In this document: positions 22,411 to 60,519 of the stretch, piece after piece
Position numbering within the stretch: the first letter of the stretch is position 1
Layout of the letters: every line of letters begins with the position of its first letter
Assembly: GCA_006503475.1 (NCBI GenBank)
Contig: RSEH01000042.1
Coordinates: 1-64,000 of the forward strand
Origin: Stentor roeselii
Lineage: Eukaryota; Ciliophora; Heterotrichea; Heterotrichida; Stentoridae
Direction: 5' to 3'
Length of the DNA: 64,000 nucleotides
The notes under the pieces: generated by a model
Told to the model about the DNA's origin: nothing
The model's input: only the letters and a program-made list of their open reading frames with translations
Database searches by the model: none
Made by a program: the position numbers and the translations under genes

Positions 22411-25400
22411 ATGAATAATCAAGACCAAAAACCATTGCGTTATATCGAATTACAAGGAATCAGAGCAAACCTGACCTCTCCATACCCTTCCAACAAAATA
22501 ACTACCTCTTTCTACACAAAATACAATTTTCTTCCAAAAGTGCTTTTTAAGAATTTCATGAAATTTCCGAAACTCTGGTTTCTGTTGATCACTTTGCTTG
22601 AAGTTGTAGACTTGTTAGACACGACATACAAGTATGGAACATTGATTCCTTTGGTAGTTTTAACAGGGATTTTTATGATAAGAGAAGGAATAAGTGACTA
22701 TTATCGACATTCTCACGATGATCTTATAAATTTTCATGAATATTCCGTGTGGGATGGAAGTCAGCGCATTTTAAAGAAATGTTCAGATCTTTTAGTGGGT
22801 GACATCGTGGCTCTTTTTGGGGAAGACGAAGTTCCAGCTGACATAATGCTTCTATCCGTTGGCAACGAAGAGCATCAATGCTACGTCGACGCTTCTGAGG
22901 TCTTCGGCGAAGGAGGTTTAAAAATAAAGTCTCCTACAAAAGAGACTCAAGCGATTTTAGACTCTTTGAATTTCGAGCAAGTTTTGAATTCTTTGAATTT
23001 GATTGATAATGATTTACATATCATTGCCCCGAATAAGGCTTTTAAAGACTTTTCTGGAAAGTTTCGACTTGTGACGGCCCCGACGTCGACTGAGGTGACG
23101 ATGAAGAACTTGATATTGAGAGGAATGAAAGTGGTGCATACTCCTTGGGTCATTGGGGTAGTTGTTTACACTGGATTTGAAACGAAGATCTGGATAAACC
23201 ACAGCACTTCGAATAAAGAACCGAAACTCAATGAAATCATGGAAAATTGGCTGAAATGGGGAGTTTTGCTTGTTTTAGTCATCAGTGCTGTTAACACCTC
23301 TATTTTTTCTACCTTGGGACTCCCTGGGTACCAGTGGTATGAGGTCCTTTTAGCGAATATCTTGATGTACAACCATATAATCCCCACTTCTTTGTTATTA
23401 TCTGTTGAGTTTGTAAGACTTTTTTTAAATTTTCTCATCAGAAGACAAGCTCCTAATGTTTTTTTAAACGCGCCTAACCTTTGCTCGAACCTTGGAATGG
23501 TCGAGTACATCGTGACTGATAAAACTGGAACACTCACTGATAATGTACTTCGGGTGGCTTTGATAGTGATTGAAAACCGGGTTTATATCGATAAAGATGA
23601 AGAAGAGGCAGTTTCAGACCAAAATGAATTTCAAGATGATTCACAAATTCAGTCAGATTCTAACTTAAACCTCGCTTTTAACCTTCTACAAGACTACCCT
23701 GGACAGATCTTTACTTTTAAAAACCTCGGCGAAGAGCTGGTAAAAGAAGAAACTGATCAATTACGACATCATTTTTTTTACTGTCTTTCTTTATGTAACT
23801 TAGCCATTCCTGAAGATGGAGACTTTCTTTCTATTTCTCTTGATGATAAGGTACTTGCTTACTGTGCAAGTACTTTTGGATTCAGGGCAGAGTCTCGTGA
23901 TGAAAATGAATGTGACATGAAGGTCTTTGAACGAGATGAAAACTTTTACGTCATCGGGACTCAGGCCTTTGCCTCAGAAAGTAAAAGGTCAAGAATCGTG
24001 GTAAAGAAAAAAGGCTCTAATGAGGTCTTTATGTATATCAAAGGCAGAAAAGCTACTGTTTCAAGAGTTTTTAAGGACTTTAAGGAAAACCCTGAGATTG
24101 AAAAGTGCCTCATGAACTTCAGGTGTCTTTACCTAGGGTATAAAAAAATGACTAAACATGAAGTTGAAGATTTCATGTTTGAATACTCAAATGCTCGAAT
24201 GTCTCTTGTGAATAAAGAAGGTAGAGTTGAATCTGTTTTCGAAAAATACGAAAAAAATGCTAAATTTTTAGGAATTATCGGAATTGACGATGGAATCTCT
24301 GAACAGACCAAGACTGCAATAAGGTCTTTAAAAGGAGCAGGAATAAAATTCTGGGTGTTAAGTGGCGATTCAGCAGACTCAACTTTAACCTCTTCTTTAT
24401 CCTCAGGGATTCTCGACCCTTCTCACAAGGTGTTAAAAATTTCAGACTTTAAATCAGAATTAGACTGTTTGAACTTTCTGGAGTCTTATTTAAAAAAGCA
24501 TGTCTTTCCCGGATTTCTGACATCTGAAATTGAGCTCGGCGACCTCGCCGAGCACCCTGAAAATGAACAAAGCATAAAAAGCAACTTAAGTGAAAAAGAC
24601 CTTGAAAGTCCTCTAGCCGAGGTGGAACACATTAGAAAGACTTCTCAAAAGCGAATGTCTTACGTTCCATCAAAACTCCGAAGGTCTTCAGTGCACCCTG
24701 CAATATCCCAGCTGAGTCTTTACAAGCACTTGACAGAGCTTCAAGGTGAATACAACCCGAAGTCCTTGAAATTCGTGTTAAGCATCGATTCAAAAGGTTT
24801 CGAGCTTTGCCTGGAGACTCACATTCACTTGAAGTACTTTATTTTTCTTTTATTCACGGCGAAAGCCGTGATTTTTCACTCGTTGTTACCAGACCAAAAA
24901 GCAAAAATCATCAATTTGATGACTTGCAACTTTCGCTTCCGGCCAATGATCATGACTGTCGGCGACACCTTAAGCGACGCGGGGATGATTCAACAAGCTC
25001 ATGTAGGAGTTGCCTTGCAAGGAAGCAGTTCAAGCAACAGCGCTGATGTAGTGATTGAGAAGTTCAGTGACTTGGCAAGTCTTATCTTGATTCATGGTCA
25101 CCGTCAATATATTCAGATTTCAAAAATGGTGCTTCTTTCATTTTACGCTACAAGTTTAATTGAATTTCTGTTTTCTTTTTTCAATATGGTCTCAGGGTGG
25201 ACTGGCAGCCTGCCCATGAGCAAGGCGCCGTTGATGGCGTATGAACTGGTGGCGAGTATTATTCCTTTAGTCACCCTCTGCTTGTTTGACGAGGACAGTT
25301 CTTCTACCCGGTTGACTCCTCAGGCGTACAAGGCAGGAATATTTAACTCGGTGTTGACTGTGAAAAATCTTGTCTTTTACGTGATGACTGCATTAGTTCA

Positions 25401-28400
25401 AAGTATTTTTATTTTTGTGACTTGCAGGGTGTTCTTTCAAGGAGTCTCAGAAAATGGAAAATCTGGAGAATTGACTTTAATGGACTTTTCATTAAGTGTC
25501 GTCACTTATAACACCTTGATGGTCTGCTTTTTAGTAGAGGCTTATTCTTTAACAGTCAAGTTACTTGCTTGGTACTTGTTGTCTTTGTTGATTGGAGTGC
25601 TTATCGTCGTTCCTCTCTCTTACACCCAGTCTGAACTGCAGGGGATGATTCAAACTGCTGCTGAATACGACCTGCTCTGGGCTTTTATCCTTATCAACTT
25701 ACTCTTTGCATTCACTTCAATGTACCTGCTTAAAACTTGCAGGTATCTCGTCTTTCCAGGAATTCTTGAACTGGCAAAGTCAGACTCTCCTAATAGTAGT
25801 TTACAAAATCAGACTAGAATTCGACAGTATTCGAAAAAATTAAATCAGGTCTTTAGAAATTCTTCTGAATTTAATAAGAAAAAAGACTATGAACCTAGCA
25901 AGTTAAATTCGAAGTTCTTGTTTTTTTCTTCGAAATTCTTGGAAAATCAGTATCAACAAGATAAACTTGCGGAAAATTTAGGAAGTGCTCAGATGTCTTT
26001 GGTTGTTGTTGGAACTGCTGTGGGGGGGTATAGCTTGTTGCAGATTTTTACACATTTGGACGATGTTCCTGGAGTTGCTTTTCAGGTTGTGATGAGTGCT
26101 GCGTTTCTGGCAGTTACGGGGTTGATGAGGGTTAGAAGTGTTTTGAGGTACTCTCGTGTTTATGTTACGGTTTATTATGTTACTTTGCAGATGTTTTTCT
26201 TGGTATCGCAGGTTAGGTTCAAGATGTACTCTCTACCAGTCCTATTATTCGGTCCATACTTTATCCTTCTAGGTTTCAACTACCACTGGTTCACTTTAAC
26301 AGTAACAGTCTTTCTCGGAACGATACCAGCATTGATAAACTTTATCTCCCATTCAAAAGAAACATCCCCTCAAATACTTTACGACTCCATCGCCTACACC
26401 TTCATCTACCTGACACTCTGTTCATTATCCTCAATAATAACCTACCACATCGACAAGTCCAAACGTCTCGAATTCCTTTTAATCCAAAAAGTCATGATCG
26501 AGATCCAAAAGACCAAAGGAGTCCTCAACTTCCTCTTACCCGCCTTCGTCCGTAAGCGAGTAAAAGAAGGCGTCCGATTCATATCCGAGAACCAAGGCGT
26601 TGTAAGCATAATCTTCTGCGACATCGAAAACTACGAAACCCTTTTAAAAGAATACAGTCAAAAAGAACTAACTATTTTCATCGACGAGTTATTTTCACGC
26701 ATCGACCACATCTGTCACTTATCAGGTTGCACTAAAATCGAAACTGTTGGAAAAACTTACATGGCCTGTGCAGGTTTAAAAGAAAGTGAATTAGAACTTG
26801 ATGTTTATTACAGCTCGATACCTGCTTCAAGAAGATGTGTCGAGATGGCTGCCGCTATTTTAAGACTTGCTGAATCAGTTCACTTGAAAAGTGGAGAAAG
26901 TATTCGGTTTAAACTAGGAATTCACTCTGGAGAAGTCACTGCAGGAGTTGTCGGGTATCATAAACCTCAATTTTCACTTGTTGGGGACACTGTCAACACT
27001 GCTAGTCGCATGGCTTCTCTTTGTCCTGAAAGCAACGTCGTGCAAATTTCTCAAGCGGCTTATGATACCATTGGCGAAACCTCTGGATTTACTTTCACTC
27101 GAAGTCAGATTCAAGCAAAAGGAAAAGGCTTGTTAGCAACTTTTTTAGTTTCTCTTCCAGTCTCAGCTGAACCGCCTTCTTCAAGTTCAAAGCTCGGGCT
27201 GAATAACTCTCTGTCATTATCTGAACTTTTCACATTCAAATCAGTCAACCGCAGCAGAAAACAAACACGTCGAACGACTTTGTATAATTTTTCAAATCAA
27301 CACGCGGACCACGACCAGCGACGGTCAAGTCTTATCGAGTTGCTGAATGAAGACATCTCACCAGATGACGGCTTTATTCGCAGAGAAACGGAAATAATTG
27401 AACAGGCCAAATGGTTCACTTTTTCTTGCTCTGAAAGTTTGAAGGAGAAAAAGTTTAGACTTGAAATCAGTGAAACTAATTTTCCAGTTATTTTGTGGTC
27501 GGGTGTTCTGAGAATTGCTTGTAATGGACTTTTGTTGGTTTTAATGGTTGTGGAAATTTCAGTTGAAAAGGATTTTAAGGATTTTTATGAAATTGTTAGA
27601 CTTGTCGTTGAAATTATTGCGGAAGGCTGGATTTTGATGAAGTTGAGGAAAAAGTTTAATGAGTTTAGCTTTGTTTGGACTATTGGATTGGTTTATATGA
27701 TAGGAGCTGTGAGTAAGATTGGGATTAGTTGGAAGTCGCCTGATTTGATCTTTGCTGATTTTATTGTTCATTCTTTGCAAGTCGCTCACTGCAGTCAATT
27801 GTATTTCAAGCACTTTATTTGGATCGTTTTAGGACTTTTTTGTTCTTTTATTGTTTTTATGTCTGTCACTCGGATTAGTGGCTTTGCTGAGATGATTTAC
27901 GGCCTTTTCGTATGTTTACTTATTTTGACTTACAGTGTTTATTTAAGGGAAAAAACTCTTCGATTTTACTCGAATATCACGAAAGCTGCGAATAAAGAGT
28001 TGAAGAGGATTAACGAGTTGTTAACTGAAATGATGCCGAAACATGTCTTTGAGACTTTAAGAGAGCAAAACACTGTAACTGAAAAAATCAGCAATGCAAC
28101 GATTTTATATGCGGATATCGTCGGATTCACTCAGTGGTCCTCTTCTAAGACCCCTGGAGAGGTCGTCAACATGCTAAGTGACCTTTTCACTCAGTTTGAC
28201 ATGAAATGCAAAGAACACCAGGTTTATAAAGTTCATACTATCGGAGACTGTTACGTCGCTATGGGTTATTTGCAGTCACATAACAGGAACTATCAGGAAG
28301 AATGTAAAAATCTCATCTTTTTCGCTTTAGATCTCGTGAAAATCATTCAAGAAGTCAACTTGGAAAGAGGAATTGAACTGAATATGAGAATTGGTGTTCA

Positions 28401-28644
28401 TACTGGTGATATCATTGGAGGGATCACTGGAACTAGCATTGTGAGATATGATATTTATGGAATCGACGTCTTAATTGCAAATAAAATGGAAAGCTCGGGA
28501 ATACCTGGAAAAGTTAAAATCAGTCAAAAAACTTTTGAACTACTTGAATATCGATTTCCTGGAATGTTTTTGTTTGAAGAGGATAAAATCGTTGAAGTTG
28601 CTGGGAAACAGATCAGGACTTATTTTGTTAATTTGAATAATTAG
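22411..28644 (+). CDS. P4-ATPase/guanylyl cyclase fusion, 2077 aa
   Basis: Membrane guanylyl cyclase of the alveolate type: a P4-ATPase-like unit followed by two six-helix-type membrane sets and cyclase domains. The ATPase part shows DKTGTLTDN with the phosphorylatable Asp near residue 370 and a hinge GDTLSDAGMI near 850. The actuator motif is weakened (FGEGG where flippases have DGETN), so lipid transport is doubtful. The first cyclase domain (~1395-1600) has KIETVGKTYM and FSLVGDTVNTASRM. The Glu (~1445) and Ser (~1520) at base-selecting positions favour GTP, and Asn/Arg are kept, but the second metal Asp is Lys. The second domain (~1890-2070) keeps both metal Asp (YADIVGF, HTIGDCYV). This is the complementary, order-inverted pair known from Paramecium, Tetrahymena and Plasmodium. 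There is no intron over 6.2 kb. Confidence 0.9.
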   Translation: MNNQDQKPLRYIELQGIRANLTSPYPSNKITTSFYTKYNFLPKVLFKNFMKFPKLWFLLITLLEVVDLLDTTYKYGTLIPLVVLTGIFMIREGISDYYRHSHDDLINFHEYSVWDGSQRILKKCSDLLVGDIVALFGEDEVPADIMLLSVGNEEHQCYVDASEVFGEGGLKIKSPTKETQAILDSLNFEQVLNSLNLIDNDLHIIAPNKAFKDFSGKFRLVTAPTSTEVTMKNLILRGMKVVHTPWVIGVVVYTGFETKIWINHSTSNKEPKLNEIMENWLKWGVLLVLVISAVNTSIFSTLGLPGYQWYEVLLANILMYNHIIPTSLLLSVEFVRLFLNFLIRRQAPNVFLNAPNLCSNLGMVEYIVTDKTGTLTDNVLRVALIVIENRVYIDKDEEEAVSDQNEFQDDSQIQSDSNLNLAFNLLQDYPGQIFTFKNLGEELVKEETDQLRHHFFYCLSLCNLAIPEDGDFLSISLDDKVLAYCASTFGFRAESRDENECDMKVFERDENFYVIGTQAFASESKRSRIVVKKKGSNEVFMYIKGRKATVSRVFKDFKENPEIEKCLMNFRCLYLGYKKMTKHEVEDFMFEYSNARMSLVNKEGRVESVFEKYEKNAKFLGIIGIDDGISEQTKTAIRSLKGAGIKFWVLSGDSADSTLTSSLSSGILDPSHKVLKISDFKSELDCLNFLESYLKKHVFPGFLTSEIELGDLAEHPENEQSIKSNLSEKDLESPLAEVEHIRKTSQKRMSYVPSKLRRSSVHPAISQLSLYKHLTELQGEYNPKSLKFVLSIDSKGFELCLETHIHLKYFIFLLFTAKAVIFHSLLPDQKAKIINLMTCNFRFRPMIMTVGDTLSDAGMIQQAHVGVALQGSSSSNSADVVIEKFSDLASLILIHGHRQYIQISKMVLLSFYATSLIEFLFSFFNMVSGWTGSLPMSKAPLMAYELVASIIPLVTLCLFDEDSSSTRLTPQAYKAGIFNSVLTVKNLVFYVMTALVQSIFIFVTCRVFFQGVSENGKSGELTLMDFSLSVVTYNTLMVCFLVEAYSLTVKLLAWYLLSLLIGVLIVVPLSYTQSELQGMIQTAAEYDLLWAFILINLLFAFTSMYLLKTCRYLVFPGILELAKSDSPNSSLQNQTRIRQYSKKLNQVFRNSSEFNKKKDYEPSKLNSKFLFFSSKFLENQYQQDKLAENLGSAQMSLVVVGTAVGGYSLLQIFTHLDDVPGVAFQVVMSAAFLAVTGLMRVRSVLRYSRVYVTVYYVTLQMFFLVSQVRFKMYSLPVLLFGPYFILLGFNYHWFTLTVTVFLGTIPALINFISHSKETSPQILYDSIAYTFIYLTLCSLSSIITYHIDKSKRLEFLLIQKVMIEIQKTKGVLNFLLPAFVRKRVKEGVRFISENQGVVSIIFCDIENYETLLKEYSQKELTIFIDELFSRIDHICHLSGCTKIETVGKTYMACAGLKESELELDVYYSSIPASRRCVEMAAAILRLAESVHLKSGESIRFKLGIHSGEVTAGVVGYHKPQFSLVGDTVNTASRMASLCPESNVVQISQAAYDTIGETSGFTFTRSQIQAKGKGLLATFLVSLPVSAEPPSSSSKLGLNNSLSLSELFTFKSVNRSRKQTRRTTLYNFSNQHADHDQRRSSLIELLNEDISPDDGFIRRETEIIEQAKWFTFSCSESLKEKKFRLEISETNFPVILWSGVLRIACNGLLLVLMVVEISVEKDFKDFYEIVRLVVEIIAEGWILMKLRKKFNEFSFVWTIGLVYMIGAVSKIGISWKSPDLIFADFIVHSLQVAHCSQLYFKHFIWIVLGLFCSFIVFMSVTRISGFAEMIYGLFVCLLILTYSVYLREKTLRFYSNITKAANKELKRINELLTEMMPKHVFETLREQNTVTEKISNATILYADIVGFTQWSSSKTPGEVVNMLSDLFTQFDMKCKEHQVYKVHTIGDCYVAMGYLQSHNRNYQEECKNLIFFALDLVKIIQEVNLERGIELNMRIGVHTGDIIGGITGTSIVRYDIYGIDVLIANKMESSGIPGKVKISQKTFELLEYRFPGMFLFEEDKIVEVAGKQIRTYFVNLNN

Positions 28645-57143: not shown

Positions 57144-58964
57144 CTACTGTTTTCCATTTTCCATCAATTCCTTCCACTTTTCCTTATTCTCCGCAATGAT
57201 TCTTAAATTTTCAGCGACAGCCGGAAACAAATTAACCAACAAATTAAAAGTAGGTTCAATAAACAACTCAGTAAATCCAATCTGAGACTTAGGTACAGAA
57301 ACCGTAAACCTATCACAAAGATTACTAATAGGAAGTCCCATTTCCCTTTCCTTATCCCCCTGCACAAAGAACTCATTCATAACCCTAACAGCCCATTCAT
57401 AGCAATTCTTCCAAGGCCTGGAAGGATTTCCCACATCACTAGCATGCATGAGCATTTCCATAACAATCATCCGATCCTCATCATCTTTAACAGTCGCATT
57501 CGAGAACTTGAGTTGAAACTTTCCAAGATCAGCGAAGTGTCTTGCAAAATCAGTTGCAAGGACAACTGAAATAGTTTTAAACCTGAATTTTTTTTTATCA
57601 TCTTTTGAGAAATTTTCAATAAAATTGAATTTTTCAGTCATCAGTAACTTGAAAGCAGAAGCGACGTGAAAGTTTTCAAGGACTGACTTGTCGTTGTAAG
57701 TCAGGGCTAAAGAGTCGTTTGAGTTTATTAGGAAAAGGTTGTTTAGACCTGGATGGTCGTAGTCGTGAATGGCGGCTGAGATCAGACAAACTCCGATTTC
57801 GAAGTCGGCTAAAGAAGCGATTTCTATGGCTTGGCAACTGTGAAGGAAGTAGTAGTAACTTTGGACTACGTCTGCTGCGTGAAGAGAGTTGTGGTATGGG
57901 TTTTCTTTGTGGTAACCTGATTGGATTGCTTGGATAAAATTATTGAATTTTGTGTTGTCTAGGGATAGGGTGTGGAAGAGGTTGTAGAGAGAGAATAAGT
58001 GAGTTGTTATGATTTCTAGGCTTTTGTTTTCCGATGATTTTTCTAGTTTAAAAATGTCGAAGTCCCAGTTGTGGCAGTCTTTTAAAATCGATTCAACTTC
58101 CTGGCCATAATGTTCAATAGCAACCAAATTAACATAAGTTTCAGTTTTCATAGGAGTATCACTTTCATCTTCAAACTGATTCTGATTAACAGCCCAATTA
58201 ACCAGATCCCTTAACTCTTCCTTAACAGCCCTGATATTAGTCTGATAAATTTTCTGTTCTTTAATCATATGAATGCTCCATTCAATATCAGTCTTCAACT
58301 GAGTCTGATAAGAAATCCATTCAAGTTCCAAGATAGTCGAAAGTACTTCAATAACCTTTTCAGAAGGCGAGGTCAAATTAACAGCTGCATTCTTAACCTT
58401 CACAATTTTATCCTTGTACTTTCGCATAGTGTTCATTTTGCGAAACATAAGAAAAAGCCTGAAAATCCTCAGGACTTTTCCTAGTTTAAAAGCCAGACTT
58501 TGAGTGATTGAGCTGTTTGATAAAGACGCGATGATGACCAGAAGACAAACAATGATGATGATCATATCGAACAGGTTCCAGAAGTACTTGAAAAAAATCT
58601 AAGTGTTTCTCACGATTTTGTAGGCGAATATTCGCAAAAAAAGCTCTAAAACGAAAATACTTAGAAAAACGAGCTCTAAGATGTCAAGTTCAGTCGATAC
58701 TGAATTCACTTCTGACTCGAATGCTATCCGAATCACTACTAGCAGGGAGTAAACTATTATTAGAGTTGATAGTACTAAGGCTGTCCATCTGTGGCTTAGG
58801 AAGTATTCTATTTTTACTGATGGGGTTGAAAATGAAGTGCTTTGGTCGATTGTTTGGTAATTGAATACGACACCGTCTCGGGCTCCTAACCCGATTGAAT
58901 GACGTTTTACTGATATTCGTCGAGATGACTGATAATTTGATGCTGGAGCAATTTGCTCTGACAT
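57144..58964 (-). CDS. Voltage-sensor domain fused to cyclic-nucleotide phosphodiesterase (one intron)
   Basis: Predicted membrane enzyme hydrolysing cAMP or cGMP. The spliced product (exons 58964-58614 and 58598-57144) is 601 residues. Residues ~60-172 form an S1-S4 bundle. S2 is LELVFLSIFVLELFLRIF; S3 carries D128 in FWNLFDMIIII; S4 is SLAFKLGKVLRIFRLFLMFRK, with K155, K158, R161, R164 and R170 at three-residue steps, as in voltage sensors. No pore loop or S5-S6 follows. A helical linker leads to the class I PDE domain (~280-590): HNSLHAADVVQ, HDYDHPGLNN, MLMHASDVGNPSRPW, FFVQGDKEREMGLPISNLCDR. All metal ligands and the conserved Gln are present. The intron lies between S2 and S3. Ciliates have other channel-like PDEs, so homologues may exist. 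Confidence 0.87.
58599..58613 (-). other. 15-nt intron in the voltage-sensor PDE gene
   Basis: GTGAGAAACACTTAG on the minus strand, A at position 10. It removes a TAG and joins the end of S2 (FAYKI) to S3 (IFFKYFWNLFD). It differs in one base from chitin synthase intron 2. Confidence 0.92.
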
Positions 58965-59046: not shown

Positions 59047-60519
59047 CTATGAACTCACAAACTTGGTAACCAAGACTGAAAATGTTTCAAAGTCCATTTT
59101 GTCGTTATCCAGAGTATCTGTCATCATCTTTCTTAAGTTCTCATAATCATCCACGTTAAAATAAGCATCAAAATCTTCAGGTCCTATAAAACCATCTTCA
59201 TTTGTGTCGAGCAAGTTAAAAGCTTGTCGAATGATTGCTTTATCAGAGATATCACAGAGAAGACCTACGAACTCATCTTTTGTGATGCATCCTCTTTTAT
59301 CAAGATCGAACTTTTTAAGCATTTGATGAGCCTTGGTGCTTAAATCAGGTTTGCTAAGAATCCTTTCAATATTATTCACCAAATCCGCTTCCATCAAAAC
59401 TTCAGTACCATTCACATCAAATTCCCTCCAAAGTCCATCTAAAGCATTTAAATCATGCAAAACATTAAAAGGACTCAAAATCTTATAAATCGCGATTTTC
59501 AACTTATTAGAAAACCTGACTTTAATTGAATAAACAGTATCAATTCTGATACTTTTCACAGTCCTGATAAGTCTTTTAACAGCAATTTTATTATTCTGAC
59601 TTAAAAATCTCTTAACAAAAGGCACTTCAAAAATTTCTGCCGCAGAAGGTCTTTTTTTAGAAGCCAACAATAAATGAATAAACTTTTTTGTATCCTTTTC
59701 AAGATTTTTATAGTTAGGCGATTTGATAACATCTCGGCTTTGAACCTTTTTCTTCAAGTCAGGAAAGCTCCGGGCTTGAAAAGGTTGATGACCGACGACC
59801 ATAGTATAAAAAATAACACCCAATGACCAAACATCACATTTTTCATTATAATTCTCAGCGAAAACTTCAGGAGCCATGTACATAGGCGAGCCGTATTTCA
59901 TTTTAAACCCACTGATAGACCTAGAAGCTCCAGAAAGTCCAATAATTTTAATTTTTTTCTTATCACTATCAGCAAACAGTACATTTTCCAGGCACAGTCC
60001 TCGATGAGCAAATCCTTTTTCATGCATATATTTAACACCTTCTAAAATCTGAATGAAAATCGCCATCGCATCATTAGTTAAAAGTCTGTCATTAACAATC
60101 AAGTCAAACAATTCCCCTCCTTTGCATAAATCAAGAACCAAGTGCAAAAATTTCTGATCAATAAAAACTTCATGAAGTCTGATGATGTTCGGATGAGTCA
60201 ACTCAGTTAAAGCCTTTATTTCTCCGAGGATCATGTCGAAGTCTTGCACTGGATGACTGGAAAAAAGGACTCTGTTGGTTTCTAGGTTGGCGTCGCCAAG
60301 ATAGTAAGATTTGACTGCCCGTTTCAGGTTTAGGCTTCGATGTACTGCAAGATGAAACTGGGCACTTTGAGAACGAACGGTTCCTTCGAGTTGATGGCCG
60401 ATGTGGTACCTTTCTTTGATATCTCTTCCGAATTCTTGGAGAATTACACTTGTTTTTCCGTATTCGCGCTTTAACTGAAGGTATTTTTCTTGCATTATTC
60501 GGGATTCTTCAGAGGCCAT
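59047..60519 (-). CDS. CDPK-derived pseudokinase with EF hands, 490 aa
   Basis: Calcium-dependent protein kinase architecture: kinase domain (~40-310), junction, then EF hands (~360-490). Key residues are lost. The Gly-rich loop is unrecognisable (GHQLEGTVRSQSAQFHLAV). The catalytic HRD is HRG (AHRGLCLENVL, G174). The DFG metal site is GLS (KIIGLSGAS, 194-196). K70 (RAVKSY), E100, the APE (MYMAPEVF) and the lower lobe (DVWSLGVIFYTMVVGHQPF) remain, so the fold should be intact but phosphotransfer is unlikely. EF hands: one canonical (DLDKRGCITKDEF), one near-canonical (DTNEDGFIGPEDF, Asp at position 12), two degenerate. It may act as a calcium-regulated scaffold (inference). Nothing suggests gene decay: the frame is intact over 1.5 kb. 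Confidence 0.88.
   Translation of the reverse strand: MASEESRIMQEKYLQLKREYGKTSVILQEFGRDIKERYHIGHQLEGTVRSQSAQFHLAVHRSLNLKRAVKSYYLGDANLETNRVLFSSHPVQDFDMILGEIKALTELTHPNIIRLHEVFIDQKFLHLVLDLCKGGELFDLIVNDRLLTNDAMAIFIQILEGVKYMHEKGFAHRGLCLENVLFADSDKKKIKIIGLSGASRSISGFKMKYGSPMYMAPEVFAENYNEKCDVWSLGVIFYTMVVGHQPFQARSFPDLKKKVQSRDVIKSPNYKNLEKDTKKFIHLLLASKKRPSAAEIFEVPFVKRFLSQNNKIAVKRLIRTVKSIRIDTVYSIKVRFSNKLKIAIYKILSPFNVLHDLNALDGLWREFDVNGTEVLMEADLVNNIERILSKPDLSTKAHQMLKKFDLDKRGCITKDEFVGLLCDISDKAIIRQAFNLLDTNEDGFIGPEDFDAYFNVDDYENLRKMMTDTLDNDKMDFETFSVLVTKFVSS

Follow-up and report, generated by a model that had tools for sequence, protein, structure and literature searches.

A predicted fusion of a pore-less voltage sensor with a class I cyclic-nucleotide phosphodiesterase in the ciliate Stentor roeselii

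Background

Can a voltage sensor be joined directly to an enzyme that destroys a cyclic nucleotide, with no ion channel in the same protein? This question is raised by a gene found in a 64,000-nucleotide stretch of the Stentor roeselii genome (assembly GCA_006503475.1, contig RSEH01000042.1, positions 1 to 64,000, designated 'the window'). An initial annotation had read its product as an S1-S4 voltage-sensor domain (VSD) running straight into a class I phosphodiesterase (PDE), and had likened it to voltage-sensing phosphatase (VSP). In VSP, a pore-less S1-S4 sensor is followed by a basic stretch and by a cytosolic enzyme that acts on a signalling molecule. We analysed the gene, its paralogues and the cyclases of the same genome.

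Results

Gene model

The gene was resolved into the following features:

58964-57144, minus strand: whole gene, one protein, spliced product of 601 amino acids plus stop
58614-58964, minus strand: exon 1, with the N-terminus, S1 (residues ~59-82), S2 (~95-115) and the start of the S2-S3 linker
58599-58613, minus strand: intron GTGAGAAACACTTAG, 15 nt, phase 0, A at position 10, containing an in-frame TAG
57144-58598, minus strand: exon 2, with S3, S4, linker, PDE domain and TAG stop
58416-58790 including the intron, minus strand: S1-S4 voltage sensor, residues 59-178, from Ion_trans and solved sensors
58242-58382, minus strand: linker motif SPSEKVIEVLSTILELEW...IEWSIHMIKEQKIYQ, residues ~190-236, common to the six VSD-PDEs of the genome
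57204-57896, minus strand: class I PDE catalytic domain, from PDEase_I, solved-structure matches and catalytic residues

The gene limits and the 15-nt intron given by the initial annotation were exact, and splicing yields the 601-residue product. The intron lies between S2 and S3. According to a study of Stentor introns (PMC9505925), 92.81% are 15 nt long, with the branch adenine at position 10; the intron of the window gene agrees with this rule in size and in its A10. In the C35 paralogue this codon boundary is likewise interrupted by an intron, GTAAGGGTTAGCTAG, again with A at position 10, and the two introns have little in common except their ends. In the four other paralogues (C391, C167, C48 and C145), sensor and PDE lie within one unbroken frame with no intron-like insert, and the fusion is therefore independent of the intron. 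A codon-score search for introns, at its middle cut-off, returned 15 nt as the commonest length (5 of 31 candidates), and the intron of the window gene was absent from its candidates. Such a search is too weak alone, so the argument for the intron rests on the paralogues.

The standard genetic code was adopted, because 24 of the 25 long standard-code frames of the window end in TAA or TAG and because the in-frame TGAs look spurious. Reading TGA as Trp was rejected, as the frames with these TGAs were judged to be spurious, to lie on the antisense strand or to precede the start.

The upstream neighbour, an EF-hand kinase-like gene, is 82 bases away and the downstream neighbour, a VWA gene, about 170 bases away, which leaves scant space for a pore exon. 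The kinase-like neighbour (59047-60519, minus strand) is probably a pseudokinase: by eye, HRG replaces HRD and GLS replaces DFG.

A voltage sensor with no pore

Pfam assigned residues 58-183 to Ion_trans (5.5e-14), over positions 1-123 of the 241 of the profile, that is, S1-S4 only. Besides this domain and PDEase_I, it reported nothing in the protein up to E = 1. All the residues on which the initial annotation had based its sensor are present: K155, K158, R161, R164 and R170 in S4, with a neutral L167, and the acidic D128 in S3. S2 contains F104, E107 and R111, with E97 ahead. By comparison with Kv1.2, we take the S4 residues to be gating charges and F104, E107 and D128 to form the charge-transfer site. 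Basic residues at every third place of S4, together with a charge-transfer centre, place the domain with VSDs of the voltage-gated channel type.

The S5-P-S6 pore of a voltage-gated ion channel was not found in the protein. Its absence is deduced from two observations: the Ion_trans match stops just past S4, and the stretch of about 170 residues between S4 and the PDE contains no hydrophobic helix (the highest 19-residue Kyte-Doolittle mean within residues 172-351 was 0.8). The direct passage from S1-S4 to the enzyme is thus borne out.

By itself, the four-charge S4 pattern is a weak test. Shuffling the VSD residues 100,000 times reproduced it in 337 cases, and the six-frame translations of the window (34,432 amino acids in frames of at least 60) contain it at two places, in the window gene itself and in its kinase-like neighbour. 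The case is carried by the Pfam and PDB E-values and by the paralogues. Among the best 60 of 164 matches to solved structures, the whole CaV1.2 chain scored 1.4e-14, a value to which its four sensors all contribute; taken singly, the best of them gave 3.9e-5. For single sensors in the same set, the values were 3.3e-7 for the NavAb/Nav1.7 chimera 5ek0, 5.4e-6 for 3wkv (listed as 'Ion channel', and presumably the pore-less Hv1 structure) and 1.5e-5 for the VSP structure 4g7v. The comparison with VSP, Hv1 and channel sensors suggested at the outset hence gave matches to each; within these best 60 of 164, the bacterial-type channel ranked somewhat better, and CaV about level with VSP.

The phosphodiesterase domain and its likely substrate

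Residues 352-582 matched PDEase_I at 3.1e-79. The motifs of class I PDEs were all found: HNxxH (H353, H357), HDxxH (H395, D396, H399), the second Asp (D505) and the invariant Gln (Q556). These are the metal and substrate residues of such enzymes, and for them the enzyme is indeed intact, as had been proposed.

Among the best 60 of 151 matches to solved structures, the domain was closest to PDE4D (1e-59) and PDE1B (1.2e-57), and also matched PDE7, PDE8 and PDE9 (about 3e-45). PDE1B was the first match for the last 115 residues. Within this set the enzyme resembles PDE4 and PDE1 most, and PDE9 less; its substrate is therefore likelier to be cAMP or both nucleotides than cGMP alone, which weakens the earlier suggestion of cGMP. 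Where PDE4 has a His adjoining the active site (H232 of PDE4D2), the window protein has Phe427, but Met, Tyr or Phe also occupies this position in other PDEs of the genome.

The catalytic domain is thus like that of PDE4 and PDE1, whereas the voltage sensor stands where UCR or the PDE1 N-terminal domain would be expected. Neither of these was detected by Pfam in the linker of the window protein, or named by NCBIfam in the three proteins tried. Beyond eukaryotes, tblastn found no relatives in viral contigs among 10 pattern matches, and prokaryote genomes gave a single match of 52 residues, in a Spirochaetaceae MAG (L046).

Six VSD-PDE genes in one genome

The genome (44.4 Mb, 522 contigs) contains 56 PDEase_I places, of which 39 were inspected: 36 with about 4-6 kb of upstream sequence, C517 and C186 with about 1.4-1.9 kb, and C38 in part. 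The remaining 17 lie outside this set. An S1-S4 domain precedes the PDE at six of the 39 loci, namely the window gene, C35, C391, C167, C48 and C145, so that the search for further proteins with a VSD, then a PDE and no S5-S6, as the initial annotation had advised, brought up five paralogues of the same order. At C38, GAF domains precede the PDE. Whole-genome protein searches with parts of the VSD revealed no further VSD at PDE places; at C517 the match was confined to sequence beside the PDE, and this protein proved to be soluble. The other matches to the VSD queries lie in frames of 1416-1859 amino acids and were taken for multi-domain channels. As a control for Ion_trans, ten other PDEs with hydrophobic N-termini were examined, together with L017 and L036, and none matched at E up to 1.

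At the same threshold, Pfam made no Ion_trans call for C167 and C48. The C48 sensor matched NaV1.7 at 3.2e-13 over three stretches. For the C391 sensor, the first solved-structure match was the sperm Na+/H+ exchanger (1e-4). This exchanger (SLC9C1) is, like the VSD-PDEs, a non-channel protein with a VSD, its effector being a transporter.

The strict four-in-a-row S4 pattern was found, among 36 PDE frames, in the window gene and C35 only. Across the six VSD-PDEs, a basic residue is present at positions 161 and 170 in all, at 164 in five, and at 155 and 158 in four each. The S2 FxxE and the S3 Asp are kept in five of the six. The exception is C167 (L015:4319-6094, plus strand), where the S2 Glu is replaced by Lys, the S3 Asp by Glu, and position 164 is Pro, with VSD, linker and PDE all kept. 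This gene is possibly a voltage-blind relative, and as such a natural control. As its fusion has been kept with a degenerate sensor, the membrane part may have a use other than voltage sensing in C167, if not elsewhere. C48 and C145 (L035:937-3687, minus strand, and L039:2930-5836, plus strand) have a Cys-rich stretch and extra helices before the VSD; the Cys-rich domain is probably on the outer side of the membrane.

A further regularity was seen at eight PDE loci (L013, L014, L019, L023, L025, L026, L027 and L038), where a TAG stands in the frame of the PDE match, 6-7 codons ahead of it. This looks like one shared small-intron site.

Linker between sensor and enzyme

A custom profile of the linker recovered the six VSD-PDEs at E <= 2.5e-20 and, weakly (0.013), the soluble PDE L024. 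Since the profile was trained on these six, only its absence elsewhere is informative. The weak copy in L024 led us to soften the view that the motif is unique to VSD-PDEs, and for the same reason the motif is no proof of coupling. Within the 18 positions starting at 170, all six proteins have 4 to 8 basic residues. This run resembles the basic stretch found in VSP, though it is also what the positive-inside rule would lead one to expect.

Selection and history

Selection was estimated on a single pair, the window gene and C35, whose whole proteins are 65% identical. Identity was 74% in the VSD, 61% in the linker and 72% in the PDE, with pN/pS values of 0.20, 0.28 and 0.22, respectively, at saturated synonymous sites. 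In this pair the gene is under purifying selection, and the sensor is under constraint equal to that of the PDE.

A tree was built from 35 PDE domains out of 36 fetched, the broken-frame L030 being left out. All six VSD-PDEs fell in one group of 12 rows (99/96), beside six PDEs with no VSD, and the VSD label required two changes on the tree, compared to 5.7 in shuffles. The exact number of origins is unsure because of long branches (L035, L039, L036, L024 and L044). In the same group, L036 (965-2563, minus strand) has two weak helices and no S4; these helices are perhaps the remnant of a VSD.

Cyclases of the window and of the genome

The guanylyl cyclase to which the initial annotation had drawn attention is real, and Pfam identifies it as a P4-ATPase-guanylyl cyclase fusion (22411-28644, plus strand). 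Its link to the VSD-PDE gene was not supported. The genome contains 77 cyclase domain matches, 68 of them paired in 34 frames of 1879-2290 amino acids, and the window cyclase is one of these double-cyclase frames. At a distance of about 28 kb, and as one of 34 such frames, its proximity means little, and it was dropped as a partner gene.

Nine cyclase matches are unpaired. Those on C520, C133 and C189 were read; C513, three on C50, C217 and C284 lie outside this reading. The three proteins that were read have the following places and composition:

C520, C133 and C189 (L047:376-2901, plus strand; L048 and L049, minus strand): single-cyclase proteins with S1-S4-like helices and a cyclase

In each, the S1-S4-like helices include a long Arg row in S4 and are followed by two more helices, then the cyclase. 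No K+ filter motif was visible in the outer stretch of ~100 residues between the two post-S4 helices. Ion_trans was matched by C189 (1.5e-7, over profile positions 6-114), Pfam made no such call for C133 and C520, and C520 matched Shaker at 5.3e-4. The custom VSD profile gave no significant match to any of the three, which places their sensors in another line. As these cyclases too carry S1-S4-like domains, both the making and the breaking of cyclic nucleotide may be voltage-coupled in the cell of this genome.

Discussion

We consider it likely, on the strength of the sequence comparisons, that the window protein is a voltage-regulated PDE, working like VSP though not belonging to it. Of the VSP-like logic first proposed, the core stands, namely a pore-less sensor wired to a PDE, on the grounds of homology, of five paralogues of the same order and of selection on the VSD; the link to the cyclase falls away, and cGMP as the substrate is weakened. 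In the predicted protein, the pore-less S1-S4 sensor lies in the membrane and the class I PDE in the cytosol, and the two are connected by a basic stretch just after S4 and by a conserved linker. S4 would move with membrane potential; this movement would travel down the basic stretch and the linker and alter the activity of the PDE, and the breakdown of cyclic nucleotide (by kinship, of cAMP or of both nucleotides) would become quicker or slower with voltage. As to the sign, we favour activation on depolarisation, by analogy with VSP and because this agrees with the rise of cAMP on hyperpolarisation in Paramecium; the opposite sign is possible. PMC4588038 and PMC5746546 describe, for Paramecium, both this rise and adenylyl cyclases with a K+ channel domain. 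A depolarisation-activated PDE would fit in as the opposing arm.

The S1-S4 domain might also be a mere membrane anchor or assembly module derived from a channel, the PDE being constitutive or regulated otherwise. The persistence of the fusion in C167 despite a degenerate sensor speaks for this, as do several other PDEs whose four to six predicted helices form no VSD, which indicate that anchoring alone is common in this genome. An anchor, however, would not be expected to need the charges and charge-transfer residues that most of the six VSD-PDEs have kept, nor the 74% identity and the pN/pS of 0.20 of the VSD between the window gene and C35, and we judge this explanation unlikely, though worth keeping in mind. 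Much less probable still is that protons or cations pass through the VSD itself, as in Hv1, with the PDE as a linked effector or regulator. Hv1 is marked by an Asp in S1 and by RxWRxxR in S4; S1 of the window protein (59-82) has no acidic residue and its S4 no such motif, even if 3wkv, presumably an Hv1 structure, was matched at 5.4e-6 among the best 60 of 164.

To the idea that the fusion is an assembly or gene-model artefact, or is decaying, we give hardly any credence. It is true that the gene model was predicted from DNA sequence. Yet the same order recurs at six separate loci, at four of which a single open frame spans sensor and PDE, the gene is under purifying selection, and its neighbours are only 82 and ~170 bases away.

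How does the predicted voltage-regulated PDE compare with known systems? With VSP it shares the pore-less S1-S4 sensor, the basic stretch and a cytosolic enzyme, as well as the match to 4g7v (1.5e-5, among the best 60 of 164). The enzymes differ, that of VSP being a PTEN-like lipid phosphatase and that of the window protein a class I PDE; the HCx5R motif of PTEN-like enzymes was not found in the window protein, in which Pfam reports only Ion_trans and PDEase_I. VSP is also treated in PMC4187576. The window protein resembles the sensor-enzyme fusions already known. In apicomplexan PDEs, too, the class I catalytic domain follows several helices, a likeness drawn from descriptions; a review (PMC10865986) credits them with six transmembrane motifs, and neither the word voltage nor the term ion channel is used in it.

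Adenylyl cyclase-K+ channel fusions have reportedly been described in Paramecium, Tetrahymena and Plasmodium (by Weber et al. 2004, as cited in PMC5746546 and PMC4588038). They too are alveolate cyclic-nucleotide enzymes behind channel-type helices, with potential as the input. They synthesise cAMP and include a K+ channel domain, whereas the window protein is predicted to destroy cyclic nucleotide and is pore-less; Pfam found neither a cyclase domain nor a K+ channel pore in it.

Among the matches listed, we found no report of a VSD-PDE in the literature on voltage sensors, on PDEs or on ciliate cyclic-nucleotide signalling, and no published report of a voltage-regulated PDE. The words phosphodiesterase and cyclase are absent from the text of a 2024 review of voltage sensors (PMC13095418). 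In Euplotes, PDEase_I and Ion_trans are always adjacent according to PMC8670190, and we suspect that some of these pairs are VSD-PDE fusions, perhaps split by annotation. Homologues may well be present, unremarked, in eukaryotic sequence databases.

If the proposed reading is true, VSP would no longer be the one kind of signalling enzyme driven by voltage, the VSD-PDEs being a second, and a messenger could be switched off by membrane voltage without ion flow. We know of no earlier voltage-driven enzyme that acts through cyclic-nucleotide breakdown. Such a protein would also be a possible tool for lowering cyclic nucleotide by voltage. A wider push-pull scheme is plausible, though we advance it tentatively: pore-less VSD-cyclases would make the messenger and pore-less VSD-PDEs destroy it, so that voltage would set its level without ion flow, and the two PDEs with a Cys-rich domain may join an outside signal to voltage. 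How potential is coupled to cyclic nucleotide has been a question since the work on hyperpolarisation and cAMP in Paramecium. In ciliates, the VSD-PDEs would connect membrane potential directly with the cAMP or cGMP of the cilia.
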